A DNA stretch of 39,069 bases from Beijerinckiaceae bacterium (GTDB taxonomy: Bacteria; Pseudomonadota; Alphaproteobacteria; Rhizobiales; Beijerinckiaceae): NCBI GenBank assembly GCA_025459195.1, contig JALORF010000005.1:1-39069 (forward strand). The letters are read 5' to 3'. Every line of letters begins with the position of its first letter. Within the stretch, counting starts at the first letter, position 1. The position numbers were made by a program, and so were the translations under genes. Positions 582 through 15,080 of this stretch are shown here, in pieces. Under the pieces are notes generated by a model, which was not told the origin of the DNA, ran no database searches, and saw only the letters and a program-made list of their open reading frames with translations.

Positions 582-2006
582 TCAGGCTCCTGGCCGCAAC
601 GCCACTTCCGCGCTGGTCGCTCCGGCAATGAAGCCGAGCGCCACGGCGGTGAGCAGCCCATTGCCCGACAGATAGCCGGAGGCCTGCGCGCCCGACACGC
701 CGCAGGCCGCGCCGCCGGCCGCCAGCAGGTTGGGCAGCGGCGCGCCGTCATCTGACAGCACGCGTGCCGCGCCATCCACGACCAGCCCGCCTTGCGTATG
801 GAACAACGCGCCCGTGACCTTGACCGCCGCGAATGGGGCAGCAAGCGGCGCGCTGCCGGCCCAGTTCCGCCCGAACGCGTCGGTTGCGCCATCGCGCTTG
901 AACTGAGCCACCCCGGCAGCAGTCTCCTCCAGCGCTCCGGCTGGCAGCCGCATGCGGGCAGAAAGCTCGCCGAGGCTGTCCGCGACCAGCACGGCACCGG
1001 CAGCCTCGGCCTGCCGGAAGTCCTCGAACTGGCGGGCAATGGCGGCGATGCGGGCATCGAACACGGTCCAGGCCAGAGCCTCGCGCTGCGCGATCACGGT
1101 GGCGGCGCTTTCCGAATAGCCCAGCGCCTCATTGGCAAAACGGTTGCCGTCGAGGTTCACCTGAAAGCCGCCCTCGGTGATCGTCGCCCAGGTGATCAGG
1201 ATGCCATGGGGGTGCGCCACCGAGCCATGCCCCTGATGGCCGGACAGGTGGCGGCTGGCAGCGCCCAGCGCCCGCCCCCACAGCACCGCATCCCCCTGAT
1301 TGCCGGGATGGCCGAAATACAGCGCGCCAGCCATCTCGGGGATTTCGGCCGCGACAAGGGCCCGGTTGCCACCATAACCGTTGCAGGCCAGCACCAGTGC
1401 CTTGCAGCCGATCCGGTCGCTGCCGCCATCCGGCCGCAGCACACCGACCCCGGCGATGCGCCCGGAATCATCCTTGTAGAGCGTCGTCGCCGTGGCATGG
1501 TTGACGATGACGATGCCCGCAGTTTCCACGGCCACCCTGAGCCGGTCCATCAACTCGGCGCCGGAGCGGCTGGGCAACCCGTGCATGCGCCGGGCGGAAT
1601 GGCCCGGATAGGTGAAGTTGTCGATCACGGAGAAGCCTAGCCCATGGTTGTCGGCCAGCCATTCCAGCGCCGTTCCCGCAACATCGACCACACGATCAAC
1701 CGTCGCCCTGTCTGCCTCGCCATGGCTCTTGGCCATGATGTCGGCGGCAAAATCCGCCTTGCTGTCGGCGATGCCGGCTTCGCGCTGAAAACGCGTCTGG
1801 GCCGCCGGCACCAGCCCCGCCGACAGTGCAGTCGAGCCGCGCGGCACCGCATCGCGCTCAAGAACAAGCACATCGGCACCGGCCTCCGCGGCCCTGAGCG
1901 CCGCGATGAGGCCTGCTGCACCAGCGCCGATCACCAGCACATCACAGGCCGCGTCGAAGGAGACACCACTGGACAATGCAACCGCTGCCGCCATTTTCTC
2001 ACCCAT
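582..2006 (-). CDS. FAD-dependent oxidoreductase of the fumarate reductase / 3-ketosteroid dehydrogenase type
   Basis: A 474-residue soluble flavoprotein. Residues 22-50 form a Rossmann FAD-binding site (G27-A-G-A-A-G32, ending in E50, which would bind the ribose). The C-terminal part returns to FAD with a Gly-rich segment (LLAAGGAACGVSGAQASGYLSGNG is split across about residues 430-453). Members of this family reduce or introduce C=C bonds next to a carbonyl or carboxylate. There is no signal peptide or membrane segment. The start at 2006 follows AAGGGCG; a second ATG at 1994 also has a reasonable ribosome site. The gene diverges from the GntR regulator with about 70 bases between them, sharing the palindrome at 2035-2045, so it is probably co-regulated with the operon. 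A redox step on the imported compound is inference; the substrate is unknown. Confidence 0.85.
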   Translation of the reverse strand: MGEKMAAAVALSSGVSFDAACDVLVIGAGAAGLIAALRAAEAGADVLVLERDAVPRGSTALSAGLVPAAQTRFQREAGIADSKADFAADIMAKSHGEADRATVDRVVDVAGTALEWLADNHGLGFSVIDNFTYPGHSARRMHGLPSRSGAELMDRLRVAVETAGIVIVNHATATTLYKDDSGRIAGVGVLRPDGGSDRIGCKALVLACNGYGGNRALVAAEIPEMAGALYFGHPGNQGDAVLWGRALGAASRHLSGHQGHGSVAHPHGILITWATITEGGFQVNLDGNRFANEALGYSESAATVIAQREALAWTVFDARIAAIARQFEDFRQAEAAGAVLVADSLGELSARMRLPAGALEETAAGVAQFKRDGATDAFGRNWAGSAPLAAPFAAVKVTGALFHTQGGLVVDGAARVLSDDGAPLPNLLAAGGAACGVSGAQASGYLSGNGLLTAVALGFIAGATSAEVALRPGA

Positions 2007-2034
2007 CGCCCTTGACGCCGCTCATTTGTGCTAG

Positions 2035-2045
2035 ATGTAATACAT
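2035..2045. promoter_or_regulatory. Candidate operator of the GntR regulator
   Basis: ATGTA-A-TACAT is a perfect 5-base inverted repeat around one central base. Two further outer pairs match (CT at 2031-2032 with AG at 2048-2049). It lies in the only intergenic space between the divergent flavoprotein gene and the GntR gene. Short GT-N-AC palindromes are typical operators of GntR-family proteins. It also rules out the upstream ATG at 1976 as the regulator start. The function is inferred from position and symmetry. Confidence 0.5.
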
Positions 2046-2077
2046 TCAGGCAAGGCGCGCAGGAGCCTTTTCAGCAC

Positions 2078-2932
2078 GTGGATGCGATCGAGACATCGAA
2101 GACCCACCGGCTCTATCTGCTCCTCAAGGAGCGGATCGTGAGCGGCTCGCTCCGCAGCGGAGAACGCCTGCCGAGCGAACCGAGCCTGGCGGCAACCCAT
2201 GCCCTTTCGCGCGTCACCGTCAGACGCGCGCTGGACGGGCTGTCACGCGACGGCTTGATCACGCGGCAGCCGGGCGCGGGCACCTTTGTCAATGCGGCGC
2301 GGAGCCATGCGCCGCTGGTCGCCGACCTGTCGAACATGCTGACGCATCTCAAGGCCATGGGCCGTGCCACCGGGGTCCGGCTTCTGTCTTTCGACTACAT
2401 CACGCCGCCGCCAGCCATCGCGGAGGCTCTCGGCCTTGCCCCCGGCGAGCGCACCCAGTGGTCGGTGCGCGTGCGCAGTCTCGATGGCGTGCCGTTCTCA
2501 CACTTGTCGACCCATGTGCCGGAGCGGATCGGCTCGACCTACAGCGCCGACGACCTGTCGAGCCGCCCGCTTCTCGAATTGCTGGAGAGGTCCGGCATCG
2601 TCGCGGACAAGGCCGACCAGACCCTGTCTGCCACGCTGGCCGGGCCGGAGACGGCAGCGGCCCTCGGTGTCGAAATCGGCTCGCCGCTGATCGCGCTGAC
2701 CCGCGTCGTCAAGGGCGCGGACGGCCGCGGCATCGAGCATCTGTCGGCGCTCTACCGGCCCGACATGCACAGCTTCCATATGGAGATGCTGCGCAGCGGC
2801 GATGGTGCCAACCGCCACTGGCGGCCCTCCACGCGCGTTGCACCCGAGACGACGCCTAACCCACCATCCCACCGACACCCTGCACCCCATACGGATCGCG
2901 CAGGCCATTCATCAGCAAGGAGACGAGCATGA
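2078..2932 (+). CDS. GntR family transcriptional regulator with UTRA ligand domain (HutC/FarR subfamily)
   Basis: The protein has an N-terminal GntR winged helix (about residues 5-75, with LYLLLKERIVSGSLRSGERL and SRVTVRRALDGLSRDGLI). A UTRA effector domain follows (about 90-235) and ends near the SFHMEMLR segment. A Pro/Arg-rich tail of about 30 residues looks unstructured. The frame is open up to an ATG at 1976, but that start would lie inside the opposite gene and put the operator in the coding region. GTG at 2078, after AGGAG at 2061-2065, gives 284 residues and a normal domain start. The stop overlaps the start of the binding-protein gene (ATGA), so the regulator is the first gene of the operon. 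It probably senses the imported compound or an intermediate and controls both directions through the palindrome upstream. Confidence 0.85.
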   Translation: MDAIETSKTHRLYLLLKERIVSGSLRSGERLPSEPSLAATHALSRVTVRRALDGLSRDGLITRQPGAGTFVNAARSHAPLVADLSNMLTHLKAMGRATGVRLLSFDYITPPPAIAEALGLAPGERTQWSVRVRSLDGVPFSHLSTHVPERIGSTYSADDLSSRPLLELLERSGIVADKADQTLSATLAGPETAAALGVEIGSPLIALTRVVKGADGRGIEHLSALYRPDMHSFHMEMLRSGDGANRHWRPSTRVAPETTPNPPSHRHPAPHTDRAGHSSARRRA

Positions 2933-4134
2933 CCAGCCTCAACCGCCGCACCATCCTGCAAGGTGCCGCCGCAACCGGCGCCCTGATTGCAGCCCCCGGC
3001 CTTGTCCGGGCGCAGGCACCGGCCATCAAGATCGGCATTCTCCAGCCCGTCACCGGCGCTCTGGCGCAGGATGGCGAGTATGGCCGCCTCGGTGCCGAGA
3101 TCGCGCTGAACGAGATCAACGCCGCCGGCGGCATCAAGTCGATGGGTGGCGCGCGCCTGCAGATGGTGTTCGGCGATGCGCGCTCGAACCCGGAAGGGGG
3201 CACCGCCGAGGTGGAGCGCATGCAGGGCGAAGGCGTGGCCGCCATCGTCGGTGGCTTTGCCTCGCCGATCGTGCTGGCTTCGAGCCAGGCCGCCTCGCGC
3301 TATGACATACCCTACATCTGCGATGTCGGCGTCTCGGACCAGATCGTCGGGCGCGGTCTGAAGAACACCTTCCGCTTCGGCCCCGGCTTCGGCAATGTCA
3401 CCTCGACCGCCATCGAGAATCTCGTCAAGCTCAACGATGCCGCCGGCAAGGCTGCCAAAACGGTCGTCATCGTGCATGAGGATGGTCTGTTCGGCTCCGG
3501 CATGGCCAAGCTGCTCCAGACCCAGTTGCCGCCGCGCGGCTTCGAGATCCTCGAAACCATCGCCCACCCGACACCCTCGCGCGACATGTCGAACGTGGCC
3601 CTGCGCATCCGCGCCCTCAACCCCGACCTTGTGATCCCGTCGAGCTACTATGCGGAGTTCGTGCTGCTCTCGCGCACCATGCAGCAGCAGCGCATCCGGC
3701 CCAAGGGCATCTATGCGATCCTCAATGGTGCAGCCTCGAACTTCCGTTTCGTCAAGGAGTTCCCGGACGCGGCCAATCTCGTGATGGACTGCAACCACTG
3801 GGCCGATCCGCGCAAGCCGAAGACCGCGCAAGTCAAGGCGCTGGCCGAACAGGGCGGCCGCTTCTGGCTCTACAACACCCCGCTGAACTACTCGTGCGTG
3901 CGGTTGCTGGCCGATGCCATCGAGCGTGCCGGCTCGGCTGATCGCGGCAAGATCACCGAGGCGCTCGCTGCCTCGACCTTCTCCGATCACATCATGCCGT
4001 ATGGTCCCACGAAGTTCGTCAACGGCCAGAACATGGGCGCCGGCCCGGTCAACACCCAGGTCCAGAATGGCGACATCAAGGTGATCTTCCCCGCCGAATT
4101 CGCCGACGCCAAACCCGTCTTCCCGGCGGTGTGA
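2929..4134 (+). CDS. Liv-type ABC transporter substrate-binding protein (HAAT family)
   Basis: A periplasmic binding protein of 401 residues. The first 28 or so residues form a probable Tat signal (N-R-R-T-I-L-Q-G, a hydrophobic stretch, then VRA-QA as the cleavage region). The mature protein begins with IKIGILQPVTGALAQDG, the usual start of the Leu/Ile/Val-binding fold. AAGGAG at 2917-2922 supports the start. The family binds branched-chain amino acids but also many other small acids, amides and aromatic compounds, so the name livJ would be misleading. It is the first of five importer genes placed directly behind the GntR gene and ahead of catabolic enzymes, which suggests it delivers the substrate of that pathway. 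Two palindromes separate it from the permease gene. Confidence 0.9.
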   Translation: MTSLNRRTILQGAAATGALIAAPGLVRAQAPAIKIGILQPVTGALAQDGEYGRLGAEIALNEINAAGGIKSMGGARLQMVFGDARSNPEGGTAEVERMQGEGVAAIVGGFASPIVLASSQAASRYDIPYICDVGVSDQIVGRGLKNTFRFGPGFGNVTSTAIENLVKLNDAAGKAAKTVVIVHEDGLFGSGMAKLLQTQLPPRGFEILETIAHPTPSRDMSNVALRIRALNPDLVIPSSYYAEFVLLSRTMQQQRIRPKGIYAILNGAASNFRFVKEFPDAANLVMDCNHWADPRKPKTAQVKALAEQGGRFWLYNTPLNYSCVRLLADAIERAGSADRGKITEALAASTFSDHIMPYGPTKFVNGQNMGAGPVNTQVQNGDIKVIFPAEFADAKPVFPAV

Positions 4135-4145
4135 GACCCTGAGCC

Positions 4146-4252: not shown

Positions 4253-5125
4253 ATGCTCAAGCTCGACATCTTCCTGTCTGCGCTCGCCAACGGCCTGATG
4301 ACCGGGGCCGTCTATGCGTTGATCTCGCTGGGCCTGACACTGGTCTACGGCGTGCTGCACATCATCAACTTTGCCCATGGCGCGACGCTCACGGCAGCCA
4401 TGTTCGCCGTGCTGATCGCCCACACCGTGTTCGGGCTCGACCCTTACATCGCGGTGTTCATCCTGACGCCGCTGTTCTTCGCGCTCGGCTATGGCGTGCA
4501 GCGCCTTGTCATCAACCCGGCCAGCCATGGCAATGACAGCAACATCCTTTTGGTCACGCTCGGCCTGTCGATCATCATCGAGAATGCCCTGCTTGCCGGC
4601 TTCCGCTCCGACACGCGGTCCATCGACGTGCCTTATGGCTTCTCGGTGATCGAAATCGGCAACCTCTTCCTGTCCGTGCCCAAGCTGGTGGCTTTCGTCG
4701 CCTCTTTCGTCGTGGCATTGCTGCTCTGGCTGCTGCTGGCGCGCACCGACACCGGCAAGGCGATCCGCGCCGTGTCGAAGGAAAAGACCGGGGCGGCCCT
4801 TTCCGGCATCAATGTCGACCACATCTATGCGGTAACCTTCGGGCTTGGTGCGGCCTGCTTGGCCATTGCCGCCTGCCTGCTGATGCCGACATTTCTGGTC
4901 AATCCGCGCGTCGGCAATGCCTTTGTGCTGGTGGCCTTCACCATCGTCGTGCTCGGCGGCATGGGGTCGATTGCCGGCGCGCTGATCGGCGGCCTGATCA
5001 TCGGCGTGGTCGAAAGCCTTTCGGGCCTGTATTTCGGCGAAAGCCTCGGCCAGATCGGGATTTTCCTGATCTTCATCCTGGTCCTGCTGTTCCGCCCCAC
5101 GGGCCTGTTCGGAGCGCGGGCATGA
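4253..5125 (+). CDS. Liv-type ABC transporter permease, LivH family
   Basis: A 290-residue inner-membrane protein with about eight hydrophobic segments. It opens with LSALANGLMTGAVYALISLG and contains GVLHIINFAHGA, both hallmarks of the LivH family. The ATP-binding-cassette contact loop (KAIRAVSKEKTGAALSGIN, about residues 169-187) is present, as is the conserved VLGGMGSIAGALIGG near the C terminus. It pairs with the next gene to form the membrane channel. It follows the binding-protein gene by 118 bases, has only a weak ribosome site, and overlaps the next permease by an ATGA. Confidence 0.92.
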   Translation: MLKLDIFLSALANGLMTGAVYALISLGLTLVYGVLHIINFAHGATLTAAMFAVLIAHTVFGLDPYIAVFILTPLFFALGYGVQRLVINPASHGNDSNILLVTLGLSIIIENALLAGFRSDTRSIDVPYGFSVIEIGNLFLSVPKLVAFVASFVVALLLWLLLARTDTGKAIRAVSKEKTGAALSGINVDHIYAVTFGLGAACLAIAACLLMPTFLVNPRVGNAFVLVAFTIVVLGGMGSIAGALIGGLIIGVVESLSGLYFGESLGQIGIFLIFILVLLFRPTGLFGARA

Positions 5126-6102
5126 ACCGGGCTCCTTACATGCCCATCGCGCTGGTCGTGCTCGGCCTTGCCCTGCTGCCGCTCGGGCTGACCTCGAACA
5201 CGGTGCTGAACTTCCTCAGCTTTGCCATGATCATCACGCTGGCAGCGCAGGGCTGGAACATCCTTGGCGGGTATGGCGGCCAGTTCTCCTTTGGCCACGC
5301 CGTGTTCTTCGGCACCGGGGCCTATGCCATGGCCCTGCTGCAGGTGCGGTTCGGCATCAACCCCTGGCTGGCGCTGCCGCTGGCCATGGCCCTTGGAGCG
5401 GCGGTGGGCTTTGCCATCGGCCACCTCAGCTTCCGGGCGCGGCTGCGGGGCTCGTATTTCGCATTGGTGACGCTGGCCTTCGCCGAGGTGTTCCGCATCA
5501 GCGCCAATGCCTGGGGCTTCACCGGCGGGGCGGCTGGCGTGCTGGTGCCGCTGCGCATCGGCCCCGAGCACATGCAGTTTGCTGACAAGCGGCTGTCCTA
5601 CTGGATGGCCCTGTCCTTTGTGGCGGCAACCCTCGTGCTGACCCTCGCCATGTCCCGCTCGCGCTTCGGCGCGCAACTGGTCGCCGTGCGGGAGAATGAG
5701 GAGGCGGCACGGGCGCTGGGTGTCGATGCCCTTGCCGTCAAGCTCAAGGCGATCACGCTGTCAGGCGCGATCACCGCCAGCGCGGGCTGCCTTTACACCC
5801 AGAAATTCCTCTATCTCGACGCCAATCTGGCATATGGGCCATGGATTTCAGTCGAAGCCCTGCTGGCTCCGATCATCGGCGGCGTGGGCACCGTGTTCGG
5901 CCCGCTTGTCGGCGCGGTGGTGCTGCTCGGCCTTGGCGAGGTCACCAAGACCGCCTTCGCCAACCTCACCGGCGGCGCCATTCCGGGCGTGGACCTCGTG
6001 GTGTTCGGCGTGCTTCTCATCCTGTGCGTTGCCTATGCGCCGCGTGGGGTGCTGGGCCTGGCGCAAGGCTGGCTCGGCAGGTTGAAGGGGGCAAGGCCAT
6101 GA
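5122..6102 (+). CDS. Liv-type ABC transporter permease, LivM family
   Basis: A 326-residue membrane protein, the LivM partner of the preceding permease. Landmarks are GWNILGGYGGQFSFGHAVFFG (split, about residues 46-66), typical of LivM, and the cassette contact region VAVRENEEAARALGVDALAVKLKA (about 191-214). The protein continues with the conserved IIGGVGTVFGPLVGA. Length is normal for the family. Start and stop both overlap the neighbouring genes by four bases, so translation is probably coupled through the importer genes. Confidence 0.92.
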   Translation: MNRAPYMPIALVVLGLALLPLGLTSNTVLNFLSFAMIITLAAQGWNILGGYGGQFSFGHAVFFGTGAYAMALLQVRFGINPWLALPLAMALGAAVGFAIGHLSFRARLRGSYFALVTLAFAEVFRISANAWGFTGGAAGVLVPLRIGPEHMQFADKRLSYWMALSFVAATLVLTLAMSRSRFGAQLVAVRENEEAARALGVDALAVKLKAITLSGAITASAGCLYTQKFLYLDANLAYGPWISVEALLAPIIGGVGTVFGPLVGAVVLLGLGEVTKTAFANLTGGAIPGVDLVVFGVLLILCVAYAPRGVLGLAQGWLGRLKGARP

Positions 6103-6926
6103 GCGCACTGCTCAGCGTCCAGGGCGTGACCAAGCGCTTCGGCGGCCTGACGGCTGTGGACAATGCCTCGCTTGACGTGGTGAAGGGCTCGATCACAGGG
6201 CTGATCGGGCCGAACGGGGCCGGAAAGACCACGTTGTTCACGGTCATCGCCGGCTTCGAGGCGGCCAGCGCCGGCACTGTCCTGTTCGAAGGCCGCGACA
6301 TCACCGGCCTGCCCGCCCATGTGCGCGCGGTCGGGGGCATCGCCCGCACTTTCCAGATCGTGCAGCCCTTTGCCGGCCTGAGCGTGCGCGAGAACATCGC
6401 GGTCGGGGCCTTCCTGCGCCACAAGGCCCGCCATGCGGCGCTCGAACAGGCCGATGCCGTCGGCCATCAGGTCGGCCTCGGGCCGCTGCTCGACCAGTCG
6501 GCGGGCCAGCTCACCGTGGCCGGCCGCAAGCGGCTCGAACTCGCCCGCGCCCTTGCCACCGCCCCTCGCCTGCTCCTGCTTGATGAGGTTCTGGCCGGGC
6601 TCAATCCATCGGAAATCCGCGACATGATGCCGGTCGTGCAGGCCATCCGCAGCAGCGGCGTCACCATCCTCATCGTCGAGCATGTCATGCAGGCGGTGAT
6701 GAGCCTGTGCGACACGGTGCATGTGCTGGCACAGGGCCGGATCATCGCCGCCGGCCCGCCCGGCACGGTCTCGCGCGATCCAGCCGTGATCGAGGCCTAT
6801 CTCGGCCACGGCGCAGCAGCCAGGATGCAGGCTCAGGACGTGCGCCAGGCAGAAGATGTGCGCCAGGCCGAAGACCTGCGCCAGTCACAGGCACGCGGTC
6901 AGGCTCCGGGAGCGCCCCATGCTTGA
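6099..6926 (+). CDS. Liv-type ABC transporter ATP-binding protein, LivG family
   Basis: A cytoplasmic ATPase of 275 residues. It has Walker A GPNGAGKTT (about 38-46), the LivG-typical ARTFQIVQPFAGLSVRENIAVGAF, a somewhat divergent signature (QLTVAGRKRLELARAL in place of the usual LSYG-Q-RLEIARAL), and Walker B LLLLDEVLAGLNPSE. The frame is open further upstream, but ATG 6099 overlaps the livM stop, follows GGGGGC and starts the domain normally. The last 30 residues are an unusual extension made of a sixfold-codon repeat (DVRQAE, DVRQAE, DLRQSQ) that is not part of the ATPase fold. Confidence 0.92.
   Translation: MSALLSVQGVTKRFGGLTAVDNASLDVVKGSITGLIGPNGAGKTTLFTVIAGFEAASAGTVLFEGRDITGLPAHVRAVGGIARTFQIVQPFAGLSVRENIAVGAFLRHKARHAALEQADAVGHQVGLGPLLDQSAGQLTVAGRKRLELARALATAPRLLLLDEVLAGLNPSEIRDMMPVVQAIRSSGVTILIVEHVMQAVMSLCDTVHVLAQGRIIAAGPPGTVSRDPAVIEAYLGHGAAARMQAQDVRQAEDVRQAEDLRQSQARGQAPGAPHA
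6837..6890 (+). repeat. Three tandem 18-bp repeats at the 3' end of the LivG gene
   Basis: Copies run 6837-6854, 6855-6872 and 6873-6890. They encode D-V-R-Q-A-E, D-V-R-Q-A-E and D-L-R-Q-S-Q. The copies differ at a few third positions, so the array is not brand new. It adds a charged, probably helical tail to the ATPase. Confidence 0.85.
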
Positions 6927-7620
6927 GATCAGCGATCTGGTCGCAGGCTATGGCGGCGTGCCGATCCTGCGCGGGGTCTCGCTCTCGGTCGGTGCCGGCG
7001 AGATCGTGGCCGTGCTCGGAGCCAATGGCGTCGGCAAGACCACGTTGAACCGTGCCATCTCCGGCCTGATCCGCGCCAGCAGCGGCGACATCCGTCTTGA
7101 CGGCCAGTCAATTCTTGGCCGATCCGCGCCCGACATCATGGCTGCCGGACTGATCCACGTGCCGGAAGGCCGCAAGATCTTCCCCAACATGAGCGTGCGC
7201 GAGAACCTCGAACTCGGCTCCTATCGCCGCGCCCGAGCCAACCGGGCCGGCAATCTGGAACGGGTTTTCGGCATTTTCCCGCGCTTGAAGGAACGCTCCG
7301 GTCAGTTCGCCGGCACCTTGTCGGGCGGCGAGCAGCAGATGCTCGCCATTGGCCGGGGCCTGATGGCCGAGCCGCGCCTGATCATCATGGACGAGCCCTC
7401 GCTCGGCCTCTCGCCCTTGCTGGTGGAGGAGATGTTCGCGCTGATCGCGCGCATCGCGGCGGAAGGGCTGGCTGTCATGCTTGTGGAACAGAACGTCGTG
7501 CAGTCCCTCGAACTGGCGGCGCGTGCCTATGTGCTGGAAAACGGCGCGGTCGTGATGGCTGGTGACGCTGCCACGCTCCAGCGCGATCCGAGGCTGATGA
7601 CAACCTATCTGGGAATGTGA
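6919..7620 (+). CDS. Liv-type ABC transporter ATP-binding protein, LivF family
   Basis: The second cytoplasmic ATPase, 233 residues. Walker A is GANGVGKTT (about 35-43), the Q-loop region has HVPEGRKIFPNMSVRENLELG (split), the ABC signature is LSGGEQQMLAIGRGL, Walker B is LIIMDEPSLGLSP, and the switch histidine position is replaced by Q in MLVEQNV, as is normal for LivF. ATG 6919 overlaps the end of livG by eight bases; the longer open frame upstream only translates livG DNA. The lyase gene starts four bases downstream, so importer and enzymes are in one transcript. Confidence 0.92.
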   Translation: MLEISDLVAGYGGVPILRGVSLSVGAGEIVAVLGANGVGKTTLNRAISGLIRASSGDIRLDGQSILGRSAPDIMAAGLIHVPEGRKIFPNMSVRENLELGSYRRARANRAGNLERVFGIFPRLKERSGQFAGTLSGGEQQMLAIGRGLMAEPRLIIMDEPSLGLSPLLVEEMFALIARIAAEGLAVMLVEQNVVQSLELAARAYVLENGAVVMAGDAATLQRDPRLMTTYLGM

Positions 7621-7624: not shown

Positions 7625-8503
7625 ATGGCGATGGCACCAACTCTGAAACAGCGCCTCGCCGGCCCGCCCATCCTCCTGGCGCCGGGCATCTTTGATCCGC
7701 TCACCGCAGCGCTGGCCAGCGATGCCGGCGCCGAAGCGCTGTATCTCTCCGGTGCTGCCCTCGCCTACACACGCCTCGGGCGGCCGGACATCGGCCTCGT
7801 GACCATGAGCGAAGTCGCCGAGACCATCACCCTGATCCGAGACCGGGTGGCGACACCGCTGATCGTTGATGCCGACAATGGCTATGGCAACGCCCTCAAC
7901 ATGCAGCGCACTGTGCGCCTGTTCGAACGGGCCGGTGCCAACGCCTTGCAGATCGAGGATCAGAGCTATCCCAAGCGCTGCGGCCATCTGGCCGAAAAGC
8001 GGCTCGTCAGCGCTTCTGAAATGGCCGGCAAGGTGCGCGCTGCCGCCGATGCGCGCCAGAGCGCCGACACACTGATCATCGCCCGCACCGACGCCATTGC
8101 CGTCGAGGGTTTCAGCGCCGCCATTGACCGGGCCGCGCTCTATGCCGAGGCTGGCGCGGATGTCCTGTTCGTCGAGGCCCCCGGCTCTGCGGAGGAACTG
8201 GGCAAGGTCGTGGCGGCATTGGGCCAACGCCTGCCGCTGATGGCCAACATGGTCGAGGGAGGCAAGACGCCGATCCTCACCAGCGCCGAATTGCAGGCGA
8301 TCGGCTTCTCGCTGGTGATCTTTCCCGGCGGCATCGTGCGCGCCATCGCCCGCACGGCGCAGGCGTTCTACGCGACATTGGTGCGCGACGGCACCAGCGC
8401 GGCTTTCCGCAACCAGATGTTCGATTTCGGCAGTCTCAACGAGGTGATCGGCACTGCCGGGATGCTGGCACTCGGCAAATCCTATGAGGGCGATGGCCAA
8501 TGA
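7625..8503 (+). CDS. Isocitrate lyase / PEP mutase family protein, probable 2-hydroxy-diacid lyase
   Basis: A TIM-barrel enzyme of 292 residues. It has the Mg-binding D82-A-D84-N-G-Y-G segment, I110-E111-D112-Q, and the active-loop motif K117-R-C119-G-H121, whose Cys is the catalytic acid/base in true lyases (isocitrate, methylisocitrate and dimethylmalate lyase). A later NMVEGGKTP at 208-216 resembles dimethylmalate lyase and its near relatives more than PrpB. Such enzymes cleave a 2-hydroxy dicarboxylic acid into a 2-oxoacid and a carboxylic acid. With a LeuCD-type hydro-lyase in the same operon, substrates of the citramalate or 2,3-dimethylmalate kind are plausible (inference). Oxaloacetate hydrolase or decarboxylase activity is an alternative. 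The stop overlaps hyuB by four bases. Confidence 0.85.
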   Translation: MAMAPTLKQRLAGPPILLAPGIFDPLTAALASDAGAEALYLSGAALAYTRLGRPDIGLVTMSEVAETITLIRDRVATPLIVDADNGYGNALNMQRTVRLFERAGANALQIEDQSYPKRCGHLAEKRLVSASEMAGKVRAAADARQSADTLIIARTDAIAVEGFSAAIDRAALYAEAGADVLFVEAPGSAEELGKVVAALGQRLPLMANMVEGGKTPILTSAELQAIGFSLVIFPGGIVRAIARTAQAFYATLVRDGTSAAFRNQMFDFGSLNEVIGTAGMLALGKSYEGDGQ

Positions 8504-10176
8504 GCGCGCTCGATCCCGTCACCTTCGCCATCCTTGCCGGCCGCCTCGAACAGGTGGCCGACGAGATGGATGCCACGCTCTACCGCTCGGCCTTCAATCC
8601 GATCATTGCCGAGGCGCGCGATGCCTGCCATGGGCTTTATCATGCCACCACCGGCGCGACGCTGGTGCAGGGAGCCAAGGGCCTGCCGATTTTCGTCGGT
8701 GCCATGGCTTTTGCGGTCAAGGCGGTGATCGACAAGGTGGCCGAAGGGGCCGGGATCGAAGATGGTGATACCTTCATCTTCAATGACCCCTATGCCGGCG
8801 GCACCCATCTAAACGATTTCAGATTGGTGCGCCCGCTCATTCGGCAAGGCCGGATTTTCGCCTGGCTGGCTTCGGTCGGCCATTGGCTGGACATCGGCGG
8901 AAATGTGCCTGGCGGCTACAATCCGCAAGCGACCGAGTGCTTTCAGGAAGGGGTGCTGATCCCGCCCGTCAAGCTCTTCAGGGCCGGCGTGCTCCAGCAG
9001 GATATTGTCGATATCCTGCAAGCCAACACCCGCCTGCCGCGCTCCAACTGGGGCGATCTCAATGGCCAGCTCAACGCGCTCGACCTCGGCGAAAAGCGCT
9101 TCCACGCCCTGATCGACGAGTATGGCGACGACGTCGTCACGGCGGCGCTCGATGCCGCCTCCGCCCGCGCCGACGCCCTGATGCGCCAGAACATCTCAGC
9201 CCTGCCGGACGGCCGCTACAGCTTCGAGGACTATCTCGACAATGACGGCATCGTCGACGAGCGCCTGACCATTGCGCTCGACCTGACCATCGCAGGCGAC
9301 ACGATGAGGCTGGATTTCTCGCGCTCGTCGCCGCCTTGCCGGGGCCCGGTCAACATCGCCCGGTCCACTGCCGTCGCCTGCTGTTATGTGGCGCTGAAGC
9401 ATGTCTTCACCACCGTTCCGGCCAATGCCGGCTGCCTCAATCCGATCAGCTTCGACATCCCCAACACGACCTTTCTCGGCGTCAGCGCCCCGCGCCCGGT
9501 GGCCGGCTATACCGAGACGATCCTGCGCATGATCGGCGTCGTCTTTGGCGCGCTGGCCAAGGCAGACCCCGCCCGCGCCACGGCCGCGCCCTTCGGCACC
9601 ATCAACGCGCTGTCCATCGCCGGCCACAGACCCGGCGGCGAGCGCTGGGTGATGTTCTCGTTCTTCGGCGGCGGGCTTGGCGGCAATCCGCTCTCGGATG
9701 GCCTCAACCATGCCAACAACCCGATCTCCACAGCCACGATTCCGCCTGCCGAGATCATGGAAGCATCCTACCCGGTCATGTTCACGCAATGGGCCTTGCG
9801 CCCCGACAGCGCCGGGGCCGGTGAGCATCGCGGCGGCTTCGGCGCGATCTACGAAATCGAGATCCTGTCGCCTGCCGGTGCGGACATCTCGCTGCTGGGC
9901 GAACGCGGACGCTATGCGCCTTTCGGTGTCGATGGCGGCGGCCCTGCTGCGCTCAACACCTTCACCTGGGACAGCGACGAAGGGCCGCGCACCGCGCCCA
10001 TGGCCTCGAAGATCACCGGCGTTCGGCTCAAGCAAGGCCAGCGCCTCAGGCTGGAAACGCCCGGCGGCGGCGGCTGGGGAGACCCGGCCAAGCGCTCGCC
10101 TGACGCCATTGCCCGCGATGTCCGGCAGCAACTCGTCACGCCTGGCGCTGCCGGCGCAAGGGTGGCCGCGCCATGA
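8500..10176 (+). CDS. hyuB: Hydantoinase/oxoprolinase family protein, subunit B
   Basis: A 558-residue HyuB-type subunit. It starts with the family hallmark DPVTFAILAGRLEQVADEMD, has FNDPYAGGTHLNDF near residues 90-105, and ends with the conserved GGGGWGDP at about 522-529. HyuA-HyuB enzymes use ATP to hydrolyse cyclic amides (N-methylhydantoin, 5-oxoproline, caprolactam), and related pairs carboxylate ketones, so sequence class alone does not settle the reaction. The absence of a small third subunit argues mildly against the acetone carboxylase type. Start and stop overlap the genes on both sides by four bases, which indicates coupled translation with hyuA. Confidence 0.87.
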   Translation: MSALDPVTFAILAGRLEQVADEMDATLYRSAFNPIIAEARDACHGLYHATTGATLVQGAKGLPIFVGAMAFAVKAVIDKVAEGAGIEDGDTFIFNDPYAGGTHLNDFRLVRPLIRQGRIFAWLASVGHWLDIGGNVPGGYNPQATECFQEGVLIPPVKLFRAGVLQQDIVDILQANTRLPRSNWGDLNGQLNALDLGEKRFHALIDEYGDDVVTAALDAASARADALMRQNISALPDGRYSFEDYLDNDGIVDERLTIALDLTIAGDTMRLDFSRSSPPCRGPVNIARSTAVACCYVALKHVFTTVPANAGCLNPISFDIPNTTFLGVSAPRPVAGYTETILRMIGVVFGALAKADPARATAAPFGTINALSIAGHRPGGERWVMFSFFGGGLGGNPLSDGLNHANNPISTATIPPAEIMEASYPVMFTQWALRPDSAGAGEHRGGFGAIYEIEILSPAGADISLLGERGRYAPFGVDGGGPAALNTFTWDSDEGPRTAPMASKITGVRLKQGQRLRLETPGGGGWGDPAKRSPDAIARDVRQQLVTPGAAGARVAAP

Positions 10177-12233
10177 GCCCGCACCGCACCCTTGTCGGCG
10201 TCGATGTTGGCGGCACCTTCACCGACCTCGCCTTCTTTGACGAAGCCACGCGCACATTCCGCACCGCCAAGGCCCCTTCCAACCGCGGCGATGAGGCCGT
10301 TGGCTTCATCGAGGGGCTGAAGCGGCTCGGGCCGATTGCGGAGCTCGGTGCCATCATCCATGGCACCACGGTTGGAACCAATGCGCTGCTCGAACGCAAG
10401 GGTGCGAGAATTGGCCTGATCACCACGCCGGGCTTTCGCGATGCACTGGAAATGCGGCGGCGCGACCGGCCAAACACCTGGGGCCTGTGGGGTGACTTCA
10501 CGCCGATCGCCAGCCGCGAGATGCGCCTGGAAGTGCCCGAGCGCACCCTTGCCGACGGCACCATCCGGACCGCCATCGACAGCGCCTCCGTCCAGGCTGC
10601 CTGCCGCGCCCTGCTTGCTGAAGGAGCGGAAGCGCTGGCCATCGTCTTCATCAACGCCTACGCCAACCCTGCCAACGAACGCGCCGCCTATGAGGCCGCC
10701 AGGGCGATCTGGCCCAATCCGCATGTGGCGCACTCAGCCCAGATCCTGCCCGAAATCCGCGAGTTCGAGCGCACCTCGACCACTGCCCTCAATGCCTATC
10801 TGCAACCCGTTGTCGCCAGCTACCTGACGCGGCTGGAGGCAGGCCTTGAGGCTGAGGCTTTCAGCGGCTCGTTCCACATCGTCCAGTCCAATGGCGGGGT
10901 GATGTCGACGGCGACGGCCCGCAAATTCCCGGTCCGCACCGCCCTGTCCGGGCCGGCGGCCGGCGTGATTGCCGCGGCCGCCATTGCCTCCGCCGCCGGC
11001 TATCCCGACATCGTGACAGCCGATCTGGGGGGCACCTCCTTCGATGTTTCGCTGGTGGCAGGCGGCAAGGCTTCGCTCGCAGCCCAGACAACCATCGACT
11101 TCGGCATGGTGGTGCGCACACCCATGATCGAGATCACCACCATCGGAGCAGGCGGCGGCTCCATTGCCCATGTCGATGCCGGTGGCCTGCTTGGCGTTGG
11201 GCCGGAAAGCGCCGGCTCGCGGCCTGGGCCTGTCGCCTACGGGCAGGGCAACACCCGCCCCACCCTCACCGATGCCAACATCGTGCTGGGCCGGATCAAT
11301 GCCGACAAGCCGATTGGCGGCAAACTCGCCCGGCTCGATGTGGAAGCGGCGCGGGCCGCCATCCTCACGAGCATCGGCGAGCCGCTGGGGCTTGGCGCAG
11401 AAGCTGCGGCAGAAGCCGTCATCCGTGTCGCCAACGCCCGCATGGCCGGTGCGATCCGGCTGGTGTCAATCGAGCGCGGCCACGATCCGGCACGCTTCAC
11501 CGCGGTGCCGTTCGGCGGCGGCGGTGCGCTGCATGTCGGCGCGCTGATCCGCGATGTCGGCCTCAGATCCGCCCTCGTGCCGCGCTATCCGGGCATCACC
11601 TCGGCGCTGGGCTGCATCATGGCCGACATCCGCCACGATCAGGTCATGACCGTGAACCTGATGCTCGATGGCGTCGATGCCGGTGCGCTCGATGCGCGCA
11701 TGGTCGAGGCAGGCCGACAGGCTCACGCGGTGGTGGCCGCCTCCGGGCTCAGCATGGAGCGGATCGACATCACCTACGAACTCGACATGCACTATCAGGG
11801 TCAGACCCATACGGTGGCGGTGCCGCTGCCGGTGACCCTCGCTGGCGAAGCCGGAACGGGCATCTCGCAGGCCATCATCCGCGAAGCCTTCGAGCGCGCC
11901 TATGCGGCCGCCTTCTCGCGCCTGTTGCCCGGCATTCCGGTTCGCATCGTCAACCTGCGCACCGCTGCCATCGGCAGGAGACCTGCCTTTGATCTCAAGG
12001 CCCTGGCCCCGCCAGCGGATTCAACACGCGAGGCAGCACGGCTCGGCAGCCGCAAGGTCTGGTTCGATGGCGGCTGGCACGAGGCCTCGATCTGGGACCG
12101 GCTGGCCCTGCCCGTGGGTGCCGAGATCGCAGGCCCCGCCATTCTCGAACAACCCGATGCCACCACCGTGATCGATCCTGGCCTGGTGGCGCGGGTGGAC
12201 GGGTTCGGGAATTTGATCGTGGAGAGGATGTGA
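10173..12233 (+). CDS. hyuA: Hydantoinase/oxoprolinase family protein, subunit A
   Basis: A 686-residue HyuA-type ATP-binding subunit of the actin/hexokinase-like fold. The phosphate-1 motif is G9-V-D11-V-G-G-T-F-T-D18, followed by I-H63-G-T-T-V-G-T-N70-A-L-L-E-R-K-G. Later come SGPAAGVIAAAAIA and DLGGTSFDVSL (about 260-300), and GAGGGSIAHVD. It should phosphorylate the amide or carboxylate to drive ring opening in complex with HyuB. Length fits the two-subunit hydantoinase type (a fused oxoprolinase would be about 1,200 residues or more). A 142-base gap with an inverted pair of repeats separates it from the next gene. Confidence 0.87.
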   Translation: MSPHRTLVGVDVGGTFTDLAFFDEATRTFRTAKAPSNRGDEAVGFIEGLKRLGPIAELGAIIHGTTVGTNALLERKGARIGLITTPGFRDALEMRRRDRPNTWGLWGDFTPIASREMRLEVPERTLADGTIRTAIDSASVQAACRALLAEGAEALAIVFINAYANPANERAAYEAARAIWPNPHVAHSAQILPEIREFERTSTTALNAYLQPVVASYLTRLEAGLEAEAFSGSFHIVQSNGGVMSTATARKFPVRTALSGPAAGVIAAAAIASAAGYPDIVTADLGGTSFDVSLVAGGKASLAAQTTIDFGMVVRTPMIEITTIGAGGGSIAHVDAGGLLGVGPESAGSRPGPVAYGQGNTRPTLTDANIVLGRINADKPIGGKLARLDVEAARAAILTSIGEPLGLGAEAAAEAVIRVANARMAGAIRLVSIERGHDPARFTAVPFGGGGALHVGALIRDVGLRSALVPRYPGITSALGCIMADIRHDQVMTVNLMLDGVDAGALDARMVEAGRQAHAVVAASGLSMERIDITYELDMHYQGQTHTVAVPLPVTLAGEAGTGISQAIIREAFERAYAAAFSRLLPGIPVRIVNLRTAAIGRRPAFDLKALAPPADSTREAARLGSRKVWFDGGWHEASIWDRLALPVGAEIAGPAILEQPDATTVIDPGLVARVDGFGNLIVERM

Positions 12234-12290: not shown

Positions 12291-12335
12291 CTGTTGCACC
12301 CCACAACACTGGACGTGTTTGGCTGCATGCCGAGC

Positions 12336-12360
12336 GATCCCGGCTCAAGGCCGGGATGAC
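12336..12360 (-). repeat. REP-like palindromic element, inverted copy B
   Basis: It is an exact 25-base reverse complement of copy A (12264-12288), with 47 bases between the two. As RNA the pair could form two small hairpins or one long stem of 25 pairs. The head-to-head arrangement is like that of BIME units built from REP sequences. It ends 15 bases before the next start codon. Confidence 0.85.
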
Positions 12361-12375
12361 AGCGAAGGAATTGGC

Positions 12376-12990
12376 ATGAGCATCTCACTTCTCAGCCCCG
12401 CCAACACGGCCCTGCTGCTCTGCGATTTGCAGAATGACTTCATTCATCCCGATGGCGCCTATGCGCGCGGCGGCCAGTCCGCCCCCGAGATCGCGGCGCT
12501 GCCGGCCCGCATCAGGCCGCTTGCCGATGCGCTCAGAAAGCGCGGCGGCCTTGTGCTCGCCACGCAGTTCACGCTGGTGCCAGGCCGGGCCGGCGAGCCG
12601 CTGATCGCACCGCACCTCAGGCAGTTGCGACCTTTCCTGCGCAAAGGCGATTTTGCGCCCGGTTCATGGGGCAATGCCACTGTCAATGAGCTGCAGCCAG
12701 TCGATGCTGCCGTGGAAAAGATCGCCTATTCCGCCTTTTACATGACACGACTCGAGTGGCTTGTGAGGAAGCTCGGCATCACGCGCCTTCTGGTCTGCGG
12801 CATCGTCACCAATGGTGGCGTCGCCTCCACGGTGCGCGACGCGCATGTGCGCGAGATCGACACGATTGTGCTTGAGGATGGCTGCGCCGCATTCTCGCCC
12901 GCCGTCCACGAGACCGCGATCAACGCCTTGCGCCCGGTCGGTCGCGTCGCCACCATCGCCGACATGATCGCCGAGGTGGAGGCGGCATGA
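12376..12990 (+). CDS. Isochorismatase-fold protein lacking the nucleophilic cysteine
   Basis: A 204-residue cysteine-hydrolase-fold protein. The catalytic Asp is present as D17 in LLLCDLQNDF and the Lys as K115 in VEKIAYSAFYMT. The segment that normally reads G-x-x-T-x-x-C-V is G142-I-V-T145-N-G-G148-V149, so Gly stands where N-carbamoylsarcosine amidases and nicotinamidases have Cys. True isochorismatases (EntB, PhzD) also have Gly there and hydrolyse a vinyl ether instead of an amide. An upstream frame opens at 12319 but lies in the repeat element; ATG 12376 fits the family start. The stop overlaps the leuC-like gene (ATGA). The role in the pathway is unknown: a non-amidase hydrolase or a lyase are both possible. 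Confidence 0.82.
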   Translation: MSISLLSPANTALLLCDLQNDFIHPDGAYARGGQSAPEIAALPARIRPLADALRKRGGLVLATQFTLVPGRAGEPLIAPHLRQLRPFLRKGDFAPGSWGNATVNELQPVDAAVEKIAYSAFYMTRLEWLVRKLGITRLLVCGIVTNGGVASTVRDAHVREIDTIVLEDGCAAFSPAVHETAINALRPVGRVATIADMIAEVEAA

Positions 12991-14399
12991 GTGCGGTGCC
13001 CCGCACCCTGTTCGACAAGCTCTGGGACGAGCATGTCATCGCCGTGCGCGAGGATGGCGAAACGCTGCTCTGGGTCGACCGGCACTTCGTGCACGAGGGC
13101 TCGCACCACGCCTTCCGCAAGCTCGACGAGCGCGGAGCCGCCTTGGCGGAACCGGCCCTGACCTTCGGCGTCGCCGACCACTATGTGCCGACGCGCGGCC
13201 GCCCGGTGATCGCCGACAGGGAGGTGGCCGGCATGGTCGAGCGGCTGTCCGGCAATGCCCGGCAGCATGGTTTCAGACTGTTCGGGCTGGATGATCCGGC
13301 GCAGGGCATCGTGCATGTCGTTGGCCCGGAACAGGGGCTGACATTGCCCGGCCTGCTGATCGTTTGCGGCGACAGCCACACCTCGACGCACGGGGCCTTC
13401 GGGGCCTATGCCTTCGGCATTGGCGCATCCGAGGTGGCGCATGTGCTGATGACGCAGACCTTGTGGCAGCGGAAGCCCAAGCGCATGCGCATCACGGTGA
13501 CGGGGCAACTCGGTGCCCATGTCAGCGCCAAGGATCTGGCGCTGCACGTCATCGCCAGCATCGGCACCAATGGCGCGCAAGGGCATGCGCTCGAATATGC
13601 CGGCCCGGCGATATCAAGCCTGTCGATGGAGGGCCGACTGACCTTGTGCAACATGTCGATCGAGGCTGGTGCGCGCTGCGCGATGGTGGCACCGGACGAC
13701 ACGACCTTCGCATGGCTCGCCGGCAGGCCATTCGCGCCTTCCGGTGCCGGGCTCGACGAAGCGATCGGCCGCTGGCGCGCACTTGCCAGTGACGCAAGCG
13801 CCGTGTTCGACCGCGACATCGTCATCGATGGCGATGCGGTCGCCCCGACCGTGACCTGGGGCACCAGCCCGGAGGATGCCCTGCCGATCTCCGGGCGCGT
13901 TCCCGACCCCGATGCGATCGTGGCCGATCCGGCCAGGCGGGCTTATATTGCCGATGCCCTTGGCTACATGGGGCTTGCGGCTGGCATGCCGCTGGCGGCC
14001 GTGGCTGTCGACCGCATCTTCATTGGCTCGTGCACCAATGCCCGCCTTGAGGACCTGCGCGCGGCGGCTTCGGTGCTGCGCGGGCGCAAGTCCCTTGTTC
14101 CAGGGCTGGTCTCGCCCGGCTCCAGCCTGGTCAAGCGACAGGCGGAGACGGAAGGGCTGGACCGGGTTTTCATCGATGCCGGGCTGACCTGGGCCGATTC
14201 CGGCTGCTCGATGTGCGTGGGCATGAATGGCGACCTGGTCGCCTCGGGCGAGCGCTGCGCCTCGACCACCAACCGCAATTTCAGGGGACGGCAAGGGCTG
14301 GGTGCCCGCACGCATCTGATGTCGCCAGCCATGGTCGCCGCCGCTGCCGTCACTGGCCGGCTGACGGATGTGCGGACCTTGCCACAGCTGGAGGCCTGA
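12987..14399 (+). CDS. Aconitase-family hydro-lyase, large subunit (LeuC-like)
   Basis: A 470-residue homologue of 3-isopropylmalate dehydratase large subunit, similar along its whole length. The three [4Fe-4S] ligands are C349 (GSCTN) and C407 and C410 (SGCSMC). The substrate region keeps CGDSHTSTHGAFGA (127-140), TLCNMSIEAGAR (219-230), and CASTTNRNFRGRQG (424-437). It should form a heterodimer with the next gene and add or remove water at a C=C bond of a dicarboxylic acid in the cytoplasm. LeuC is the nearest well-known family, but the catabolic operon, with importer, HyuAB and lyase, suggests a different substrate, such as citraconate or dimethylmaleate (inference). The gene overlaps the preceding one and is three bases from the small subunit. 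Confidence 0.9.
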   Translation: MSAVPRTLFDKLWDEHVIAVREDGETLLWVDRHFVHEGSHHAFRKLDERGAALAEPALTFGVADHYVPTRGRPVIADREVAGMVERLSGNARQHGFRLFGLDDPAQGIVHVVGPEQGLTLPGLLIVCGDSHTSTHGAFGAYAFGIGASEVAHVLMTQTLWQRKPKRMRITVTGQLGAHVSAKDLALHVIASIGTNGAQGHALEYAGPAISSLSMEGRLTLCNMSIEAGARCAMVAPDDTTFAWLAGRPFAPSGAGLDEAIGRWRALASDASAVFDRDIVIDGDAVAPTVTWGTSPEDALPISGRVPDPDAIVADPARRAYIADALGYMGLAAGMPLAAVAVDRIFIGSCTNARLEDLRAAASVLRGRKSLVPGLVSPGSSLVKRQAETEGLDRVFIDAGLTWADSGCSMCVGMNGDLVASGERCASTTNRNFRGRQGLGARTHLMSPAMVAAAAVTGRLTDVRTLPQLEA

Positions 14400-14402
14400 A
14401 GC

Positions 14403-15080
14403 ATGCAGCCCTTCACCAGCCTGACCGCCCCCGCCTGCCCGCTTGGCCTCGCCAATGTCGACACGGATCAGTTGATTCCGGCGCGCTTCATGAAGCGCTC
14501 GCGGGCCGATGGCTATGGCGGCGTCCTGCTGCATGATCTGCGCTTTGACGAGCAGGGCGAGCCGCGCGCCGCATTCCCGCTCGATGATCCGCGCCATGCC
14601 GGAGCACGCATTCTGGTCGCGCGCCGCACGTTCGGCACCGGTTCCTCCCGTGAGGCCGCAGTCTATGCGCTGTGGGATTACGGCATTGCCTGCGTCATTG
14701 CCCCGTCCTTCGGCGACATCTTCGCCTCGAATGCCGTCAAGAACGGGCTCCTTCCAGCCCAGGTGAGCGACGCCGACGCGGAAACCTTGCTTGCGCTGCT
14801 TGCCGGCGGTGGCCACCTCACCGTCGATCTGGAGGCGATGGCAATCACACTGGCGGGCAAGGACGGCAGCGGCCAGCCGCAACAGCGCTTCAGCTTCACA
14901 ATCGATCCGGTGCGCCGCCTGCAACTGCTGAACGGTTGGGATGACATCGACCTGACCATACGTCACACTGCCGAGATCGCCCGCTACCGGTCTGAACGTG
15001 CCCGGAGCCAGCCGTGGACCTTTCCCGAAGCGGCGGAGGAGACAAGGCCAGACCAGGCCGTTCAGGCCATGAAGCTGTAG
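14403..15080 (+). CDS. Aconitase-family hydro-lyase, small subunit (LeuD-like)
   Basis: A 225-residue swivel-domain subunit. It has NVDTDQLIPARFMKRS (about 18-33), the loop FGTGSSREAAVYALWDYGI (about 78-96), and FASNAVKNGLLP (about 106-117). It completes the active site of the large subunit. The loop reads T-F-G-T-G-S-S-R-E, against the usual N-F-G-C/S-G-S-S-R-E of LeuD, and the protein is longer by some 20 residues at the C terminus; both fit a specialised paralogue. It is the last gene of the operon. Its 3' end overlaps by 19 bases with the convergent gene on the other strand. Confidence 0.88.
   Translation: MQPFTSLTAPACPLGLANVDTDQLIPARFMKRSRADGYGGVLLHDLRFDEQGEPRAAFPLDDPRHAGARILVARRTFGTGSSREAAVYALWDYGIACVIAPSFGDIFASNAVKNGLLPAQVSDADAETLLALLAGGGHLTVDLEAMAITLAGKDGSGQPQQRFSFTIDPVRRLQLLNGWDDIDLTIRHTAEIARYRSERARSQPWTFPEAAEETRPDQAVQAMKL

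Follow-up and report, generated by a model that had tools for sequence, protein, structure and literature searches.

The stretch of DNA analysed here, called the window, covers 39,069 nucleotides of a Beijerinckiaceae bacterium (GenBank assembly GCA_025459195.1, contig JALORF010000005.1, positions 1 to 39,069 of the forward strand). The window is contig 247 of a genome of 3.2 Mb that is 96.7% complete. It carries, at 2078-15080, an operon led by a GntR-type regulator gene, next to a divergent flavoprotein gene, for which the import and breakdown of a substituted cyclic amide are proposed below. An earlier reading made from the letters alone (the sequence-only reading) had described these genes as one tight operon, and the open reading frame (ORF) coordinates and family searches of the window bear it out, every gene being found at the position expected. 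The features are as follows.

582..2006, minus strand: flavin adenine dinucleotide (FAD)-dependent dehydrogenase/reductase with an FAD_binding_2 domain, divergent from the GntR gene
2035..2045: inverted repeat ATGTAATACAT in the divergent promoter between the FAD gene and the GntR gene
2078..2932, plus strand: GntR/HutC-type regulator with a UTRA domain, from family searches
2929..4134, plus strand: Liv-type periplasmic binding protein, from family searches
4253..5125, plus strand: LivH-type permease, from curated-model search
5122..6102, plus strand: LivM-type permease, from curated-model search
6099..6926, plus strand: LivG-type ATPase, from curated-model search
6919..7620, plus strand: LivF-type ATPase, from curated-model search
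7625..8503, plus strand: PEP-mutase/ICL-superfamily lyase, predicted 2-alkyl- or 2,3-dialkylmalate lyase
8500..10176, plus strand: HyuB, hydantoinase B/oxoprolinase subunit
10173..12233, plus strand: HyuA, hydantoinase A/oxoprolinase subunit
12376..12990, plus strand: isochorismatase-fold protein (Iso) without the nucleophile Cys (Gly148), predicted half-amide hydrolase
12987..14399, plus strand: LeuC-like large subunit, predicted substituted-maleate hydratase
14403..15080, plus strand: LeuD-like small subunit

Throughout the operon the genes overlap or are separated by at most 8 bases, except at two gaps of 118 and 142 bases. By ORF coordinates the overlap is 8 bases for LivG/LivF and 4 bases for GntR/binding protein, LivH/LivM, LivM/LivG, lyase/HyuB, HyuB/HyuA and Iso/LeuC. 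The gaps are 118 bases between the binding protein and LivH, 4 between LivF and the lyase, 142 between HyuA and Iso, and 3 between LeuC and LeuD.

With Iso as the query, at least 595 stretches were matched in 84,980 species genomes, 324 of them encoding a relative, and the best 80 were taken further. Plasmids contributed another 30 records, 6 of which were examined. At an E value of 1e-40, Iso was found in 4 of 299 genomes of a phylum sample and in 26 of 385 of a class sample, its own genome being counted in each. In all, 114 loci (numbered with the prefix L) were mapped by tblastn with fixed identity thresholds, and 111 distinct loci remained after the duplicates (L117/L126, L058/L145 and L060/L146) were removed. 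Counts out of 90 refer to those of the 111 that have at least 7.5 kb upstream and at least 4.5 kb downstream. Because the loci were picked solely by Iso, these counts describe what accompanies Iso and not the overall frequency of the gene set.

HyuA and HyuB are present in 86 of the 90 loci, the lyase in 81 and a homologue of the FAD protein in 60, and in 86 loci the nearest mapped gene upstream of Iso is HyuA. HyuAB and the lyase occur jointly in 79 loci, and together with a hydratase-type gene in 67. LivH is found in 67/90, LivM, LivG and LivF in 68/90 each, and the binding protein in 61/90; GntR is seen in 33/90, the upstream end often being cut off. The HyuAB-linked set occurs in records of Hyphomicrobiales, Rhodospirillales, Rhodobacterales and Burkholderiales; judged by record titles, it extends to many Alphaproteobacteria and some Betaproteobacteria. 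A search for gene co-occurrence, which the sequence-only reading had suggested as a check, therefore finds the neighbourhood conserved elsewhere, and, with HyuAB adjoining Iso in 86 of 90 Iso-chosen loci, the conservation is well above chance.

The LeuCD-like pair and the lyase might be genes of leucine synthesis and of the methylcitrate cycle that lie side by side by chance. Both LeuC and LeuD score above the curated LeuCD cut-offs, and the best NCBIfam model of the lyase is PrpB. However, the genome carries its own separate LeuCD on contig C169, whose LeuC is 55% identical to that of the window. The window LeuC is 63-90% identical to 45 cluster rows (two of them duplicates; rows were admitted at 55% or more), and in pairwise comparison the genome's second LeuC reaches at most 58% identity to these rows and the window LeuC. 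The pair is thus distinct from the genome's own LeuCD, as had been claimed (55% identity against at least 63% to the cluster LeuCs), and a role in leucine synthesis only appears unlikely.

The lyase falls below the PrpB cut-off (TIGR02317, 283 versus 354 bits). Its motifs FVEAP and ANM(V/I)EGGKTP (ANMVEGGKTP in the window) are common to the petal death protein, a plant 2-alkylmalate lyase, while four aligned PrpB-type entries carry instead FPEA and either ANITEFGATP or ANLTEFGSTP. Each catalytic-motif residue checked is conserved in 95 or all of the 96 sequences. A loop Tyr48 is found in 96/96 and Arg/Lys50 in 92/96; neither was seen in the aligned PrpB and petal death proteins, and the two might bind another carboxylate. 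In the window's genome no second lyase homologue was found at 1e-20, and the PrpD-family protein of related clusters has no match at 1e-5 (a search without a positive-control genome, in a genome 96.7% complete). One citrate synthase match, of 324 bits, is under the TIGR01800 cut-off of 421. The score below the PrpB cut-off, the petal-death-type motifs, the missing PrpD match and the want of a citrate synthase above TIGR01800 make a methylcitrate-cycle role of the lyase unlikely. As the set is also kept with HyuAB in all four orders named above, chance adjacency is considered extremely improbable. The sequence-only reading had named two findings that would speak against it, a neighbourhood not conserved elsewhere and enzymes serving only leucine synthesis and the methylcitrate cycle; conservation has been found, and for both pathways the second has become unlikely.

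A hydratase-type gene, that is, either of two LeuCD types or an MmgE/PrpD-family gene (PrpD below; the family name is taken from the annotated relative L116), is present in 73 of the 90 loci and not seen in 17. These comprise LeuC with PrpD in 20, PrpD only in 20, LeuC only in 17, the second LeuCD type only in 15, and the second type with PrpD in 1. The second type, which like the PrpD-family gene is an addition to the earlier note, is 36-38% identical to the window's pair in L078 and L082, and the L114 pair exceeds the cut-offs set for the hacA-family and LeuD/DmdB models. In 45 of 46 mapped cases PrpD is flanked by LivF and the lyase. The second LeuCD type immediately follows LivF in 9 of 17; the bacterial-type LeuC comes after the FAD gene, Iso or a CoA-transferase gene in 35 of 43. 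From these positions and the co-occurrence counts, PrpD and the second LeuCD type share a place and are nearly mutually exclusive, and PrpD and the bacterial-type LeuCD are often found together. The closest relatives, L004 and L005, have the PrpD-family gene between LivF and the lyase. The window is without it, and the junction at 7620-7625 looks as if a deletion had fused the first codons of the PrpD-family gene to the lyase gene. A conserved tail of LeuD, considered for a time, proved to be a gap-column artefact of the consensus (0/45). Known members of these hydratase families act on substituted maleates (isopropylmaleate, dimethylmaleate and 2-methyl-cis-aconitate), and it is chiefly for this reason that a substituted maleate is placed in the proposed pathway.

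HyuA and HyuB belong to their superfamily by the Pfam domains A_N, A, A_C and B, all above the gathering scores. The best curated match of both is caprolactamase CapAB, at 502 and 294 bits, each with a cut-off of 1000. The best model of the flavoprotein is flavocytochrome c, TcuA-like models match as well, and every score is under its cut-off (for the tricarballylate dehydrogenase TcuA model NF006130, 140 versus 369 bits). In L119 a gene for allantoinase PuuE (12035-12949; 435 bits, above the cut-off) lies directly after the FAD gene on the same strand.

The best PDB match of HyuB is N-methylhydantoinase, which suggests that the ring might be of the hydantoin or dihydropyrimidine type. HyuAB would then yield an N-carbamoyl compound, Iso would decarbamoylate it, and LeuCD and the lyase would degrade the side chain; N-methylhydantoinase and N-carbamoylsarcosine amidase work by such a route. 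The nearness of Iso to biuret, triuret and ureidoacrylate hydrolases agrees with this, as do two Asp/Glu-racemase-family genes in 5 of the 90 loci. Nevertheless, Iso is without the Cys that carbamoylases use, it remains with LeuCD in variants that have no HyuAB, and a hydantoin alone gives no substituted maleate. A ring of this type is therefore regarded as improbable.

Iso is a member of the isochorismatase fold family (PF00857, 140 bits versus 27), and its AlphaFold2 model has a mean predicted local distance difference test score (pLDDT) of 88, with a best Foldseek match at an E value of 6e-14. Asp17 and Lys115 are invariant in 112 of 112 sequences. At the position of the Cys nucleophile (Gly148), Gly is found in 111 and Ala in 1, and Cys never, so that the Asp-Lys-Cys triad is incomplete; the earlier description of a Cys-less protein was correct. 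Among the best 50 of 140 Foldseek matches at an E value of 0.001, the model is closest to biuret, triuret and ureidoacrylate hydrolases; 3kl2, a 'putative isochorismatase' of unknown function, ranks 9, and the maleamate amidohydrolase NicF ranks 42. These 50 include none named as an EntB- or PhzD-type enzyme. In sequence searches the nearest characterised proteins are again amide and ureide hydrolases, and EntB-, PhzD- and VibB-type isochorismatases are also matched.

EntB and PhzD have Gly in place of the Cys. Taken with Gly148 and with the sequence matches to isochorismatases, this would suit a true isochorismatase, hydrolysing an enol or vinyl ether, or a mere ligand binder. Both the nearest characterised sequences and the nearest folds are nonetheless amide or ureide hydrolases (3kl2 also ranking high), and the other enzymes imply no vinyl ether; such a role for Iso is thought unlikely. 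Neighbouring-carboxylate amide hydrolysis of substituted maleamic acids was reportedly the subject of work by Kirby and Lancaster in 1972. In the accessible part of a study of TrtA, the Cys is described as the attacking group, activation of water is tentatively assigned to the Asp, and replacing the Cys by Ser abolishes activity (PMC7948467). A substituted maleic double bond is stated, in an available portion of another paper, to give faster amide hydrolysis, attributed to the neighbouring carboxylate (PMC8751315). Because relatives such as TrtA need the Cys and a neighbouring carboxylate speeds maleamate hydrolysis, it is proposed that Iso hydrolyses an amide with the help of the substrate's own carboxylate. 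If this is true, a Cys-free amidase of this kind would be an instructive enzyme.

A further indication of the pathway's product, which likewise goes beyond the earlier note, comes from Tistrella. There the cluster reads GntR-HyuB-HyuA-Iso-acyl-CoA dehydrogenase-CaiB-type CoA-transferase-LeuC-LeuD, with no lyase. That the two would be a glutaryl-CoA dehydrogenase and a glutarate CoA-transferase was predicted from the chemistry of hematinic acid (see below) before the model searches, after the annotations had been seen. The dehydrogenase has 620 bits to 1sir, and its next PDB matches are also glutaryl-CoA dehydrogenases; it carries DSGYRS and YEGTHD, which we take to be the active-site motifs of that enzyme, and scores 215 against a cut-off of 470 with the NCBIfam model of the anaerobic form. 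The best model of the transferase is succinate-glutarate CoA-transferase NF052585 (533 bits, cut-off 750), the next reaching 295. A lyase orthologue (68-69% identical) lies elsewhere in all three Tistrella genomes, one of them sharing the locus of the Tistrella mobilis record. In two genomes this second cluster holds GntR, Liv genes, PrpD, the lyase, a tautomerase-like gene, the FAD gene, two racemase-family genes and a second PrpD.

In another genome, G525, a CoA-transferase 74% identical to that of Tistrella (NF052585, 513 bits, cut-off 750; next model 277) adjoins HyuAB, Iso, LeuCD and a divergent GntR-lyase pair, and the glutaryl-CoA dehydrogenase is on another contig. Both glutarate genes of the window's genome are on contig C58, away from the operon; this is weak evidence, because lysine breakdown also uses such genes. 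No further glutarate-linked case was found in two order-wide searches (4/17 and 3/3 genomes with Iso). Distant CaiB-family genes near L009 and L144 were not counted: they score 251-296 bits (cut-off 750), close to the mesaconate model, though their best match is glutarate CoA-transferase.

It may be asked whether glutarate is made directly, HyuAB and Iso converting a glutarimide or a delta-lactam derivative, with LeuCD and the lyase as a separate branch. The adjacency of HyuAB-Iso to the glutaryl-CoA dehydrogenase and glutarate CoA-transferase matches in Tistrella would fit, as would caprolactamase as the nearest curated family to HyuAB. On the other hand, LeuCD lies within the same Tistrella operon, and the lyase and FAD genes accompany HyuAB in most loci and with PrpD form the second Tistrella cluster. 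Direct formation is accordingly given little credence, less than the hydantoin-type ring.

From the gene content, the conservation, the family memberships and the conserved residues documented above, we infer the following reactions, their order and the class of substrate. Under GntR control, the operon would serve to take up and break down a substituted cyclic amide, a five-membered imide or lactam being the likeliest, and this reading is given about an even chance of being right. The Liv-type system would import the cyclic amide, and HyuAB would open the ring with ATP to a half-amide. Iso would free the nitrogen by means of Asp17, Lys115 and the substrate's cis-carboxylate in place of the Cys. 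Where the acid is in a saturated (succinate-type) form, the flavoprotein would oxidise it to the maleate type. Hydration of the substituted maleate to a substituted malate would fall to the LeuCD-like pair, or elsewhere to the DmdAB-like LeuCD type and perhaps, in some species, to the PrpD-family protein. The lyase would then split the malate, giving a 2-oxo acid together with a carboxylic acid that in at least some species is probably glutarate. The module itself is real, conserved and apparently uncharacterised, and its general chemistry is plausible. If it is as proposed, it would constitute a catabolic pathway so far unassigned, and functions would be found for gene families that at present carry the names cysteine hydrolase, leucine-synthesis enzyme and PrpB-like.

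Hematinic acid, 3-methyl-4-(2-carboxyethyl)maleimide, is a monopyrrole remnant of chlorophyll, heme and bilins, and chlorins could yield its dihydro form. Should glutarate be the lyase product, the malate must bear a 2-carboxyethyl group, and hematinic acid fits; the dihydro form would give the FAD protein a task. HyuAB and Iso would open the imide, the flavoprotein would oxidise the dihydro form, and a LeuCD-type pair or the PrpD-family protein would hydrate the dialkylmaleate. The lyase would then release pyruvate and glutarate, the latter going onward to crotonyl-CoA. Iso could manage without Cys, as substituted maleamic acids would be cleaved by their own carboxylate. Other imides, lactams or hydantoins are candidate substrates as well. 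Other routes weighed include those from isonicotinate to tricarballylate, and of vitamin B6, pyrrole-2-carboxylate and citraconimide. Hematinic acid and its dihydro form are put forward only tentatively as the substrate of the whole operon, the odds being clearly against them. If they are the substrate, the final remnants of tetrapyrrole decay would gain a biological route through the operon.

According to the accessible part of one article, leaves contain hematinic acid at levels comparable to those of propentdyopents, with no maleimides detected in them, and chlorophyll is made and degraded at a scale of 10^12 kg yearly (PMC7318184). Excerpts of two others state that E. coli ChuS liberates hematinic acid from heme (PMC11442138, PMC10343206). 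In the accessible portion of the open-licence PMC literature on hematinic acid, with subscription journals mostly outside it, no description of bacterial use of the compound was found. A description of the gene set was likewise not found in searches of the open-licence PMC library, which, as it mostly excludes subscription journals, is a weak sign of novelty.

Several findings weigh against the proposed pathway. Among the 90 loci, the stretch shows no hydratase-type gene in 17, no lyase in 9 and no flavoprotein in 30. The LeuCD-like pair lies above the curated isopropylmalate dehydratase cut-offs (TIGR00170, 617 versus 560 bits; TIGR00171, 173 versus 116 bits), and by overall score PrpB entries (184 bits) come slightly closer to the lyase than do the petal death protein, at 179, and dimethylmalate lyase, at 166. 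PrpD models, whose cut-off is 950, give the MmgE/PrpD protein only 20-30 bits. In the PDB it is most like cis-aconitate decarboxylases and an iminodisuccinate epimerase (50-65 bits), so that it may be an epimerase or isomerase. It stands with LeuCD of either type in the same locus in 21 of 90. Because of this coexistence it may perform another step, and the idea that PrpD simply substitutes for LeuCD was rejected as a general rule. In the Cys-type relatives of Iso the Cys is essential, and Cys-free amidase activity remains putative. The glutarate link is seen in 4 of 111 distinct loci and two genera (at 60% identity). Finally, 8 of the 111 loci have no HyuA at 50% identity or more, and L142 and L143 have Iso without any other enzyme of the set.

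The entry compound, moreover, may be broader than cyclic amides, since L032, L045 and L079 combine Iso and LeuCD with a monooxygenase set, a variant that the earlier note did not hold. These loci have no HyuAB or Liv genes beside Iso. Their importer is SsuA-like, and they encode a flavin monooxygenase resembling PnpA/HspB as well as a maleate-isomerase-like protein; L045 and L079 have the lyase, and none was seen in L032. Further off, L045 also has a distant pair of HyuAB genes (30 and 37% identity). In L056, L072 and L073 the lyase and Iso occur with no HyuAB in the stretch examined. The Sulfitobacter version adds tautomerase and TRAP genes. The genome of L010, a metagenome-assembled genome of Methylocystis, has a second lyase (57%) and a second-type LeuCD beside two allantoinase-like proteins (121.5 and 59.5 bits against a cut-off of 424.6), not beside HyuAB.

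Two loci hold additional genes around Iso. In L144 (1515-17317) HyuBA and Iso are part of a composite that also includes a second isochorismatase-fold gene, a flavin monooxygenase, two CaiB-family genes, genes of cyclase-like and distantly PrpD-like type, and a regulator judged IclR-like by eye. In L032 a class III extradiol dioxygenase-like gene (10764-11759; 80 bits, under the cut-off) directly follows Iso.

The inverted repeat ATGTAATACAT at 2035-2045 contains the window's sole TGTANTACA and is a candidate operator for GntR. L113 likewise has a TGTANTACA site, located between its GntR and tautomerase genes. As a general operator, TGTANTACA was rejected, being found upstream of a mapped gene in only 1 of 39 mapped loci with GntR. 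The palindromes that the sequence-only reading saw in the two larger gaps are present, but at least one of them is a dispersed genomic repeat: that of the 142-base gap has 46 matches in its own genome (at most 2 mismatches, both strands summed, so that a few palindromic sites are counted twice), against 0 when the reversed pattern served as control. Palindromes of a similar kind lie in the 118-base gap, the genome-wide count covering that of the 142-base gap only. The dispersed repeat, GTCATCCCGGC(N4)AGCCGGGATC, is found at 12264-12360 and 33404-33428, at times in facing pairs.

Elsewhere in the window, the C-terminal part of a mannitol dehydrogenase/fructuronate reductase-family gene occupies the contig start (5-565). 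Genes of the cbb3-oxidase type (COX1, FixO, FixG and FixH domains and a heavy-metal P-type ATPase) lie at 19524-27376, and between these and the operon are a FixK/Fnr-like regulator (15573-16331, minus strand), an OmpR-like response regulator and a PAS-hybrid kinase. ZnuABC-type importer genes with two ABC-3 permeases follow at 27561-31265, and at 37428-38852 a Ser/Thr protein kinase domain is fused with a universal stress protein domain.

The proposed pathway shares parts with several known systems. Creatinine breakdown, with N-methylhydantoinase and N-carbamoylsarcosine amidase, likewise opens a ring with a HyuAB-type, ATP-dependent enzyme and then employs an isochorismatase-fold hydrolase; here, however, Iso is without the Cys, and the set also includes LeuCD-like and lyase genes. 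Caprolactamase CapAB is the best curated match of HyuA and HyuB, yet both scores given above stay far below its cut-offs. The aerobic nicotinate route employs the maleamate amidohydrolase NicF and the maleate isomerase NicE. An isochorismatase-fold enzyme would similarly be expected to act on a maleamate here, and a maleate-isomerase-like gene is found in the HyuAB-less variant; unlike NicF, Iso has no Cys, and hydration and cleavage of the acid would take the place of its isomerisation to fumarate.

The methylcitrate cycle (PrpD, an aconitase-like enzyme and PrpB) also pairs a substituted-maleate hydratase with an ICL-superfamily lyase. The window's genome differs in showing neither a PrpD match nor a citrate synthase above TIGR01800, and its lyase is under the PrpB cut-off. 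In anaerobic nicotinate fermentation, dimethylmaleate hydratase (DmdAB) and 2,3-dimethylmalate lyase act in succession, and the operon resembles this system in the predicted LeuCD-type hydration of a dialkylmaleate followed by cleavage by an ICL-superfamily lyase. In contrast to the DmdAB system, HyuAB, a Cys-less Iso, a Liv importer and a flavoprotein are present here, the LeuCD of the window is of the bacterial type, and the product may include glutarate in some species.

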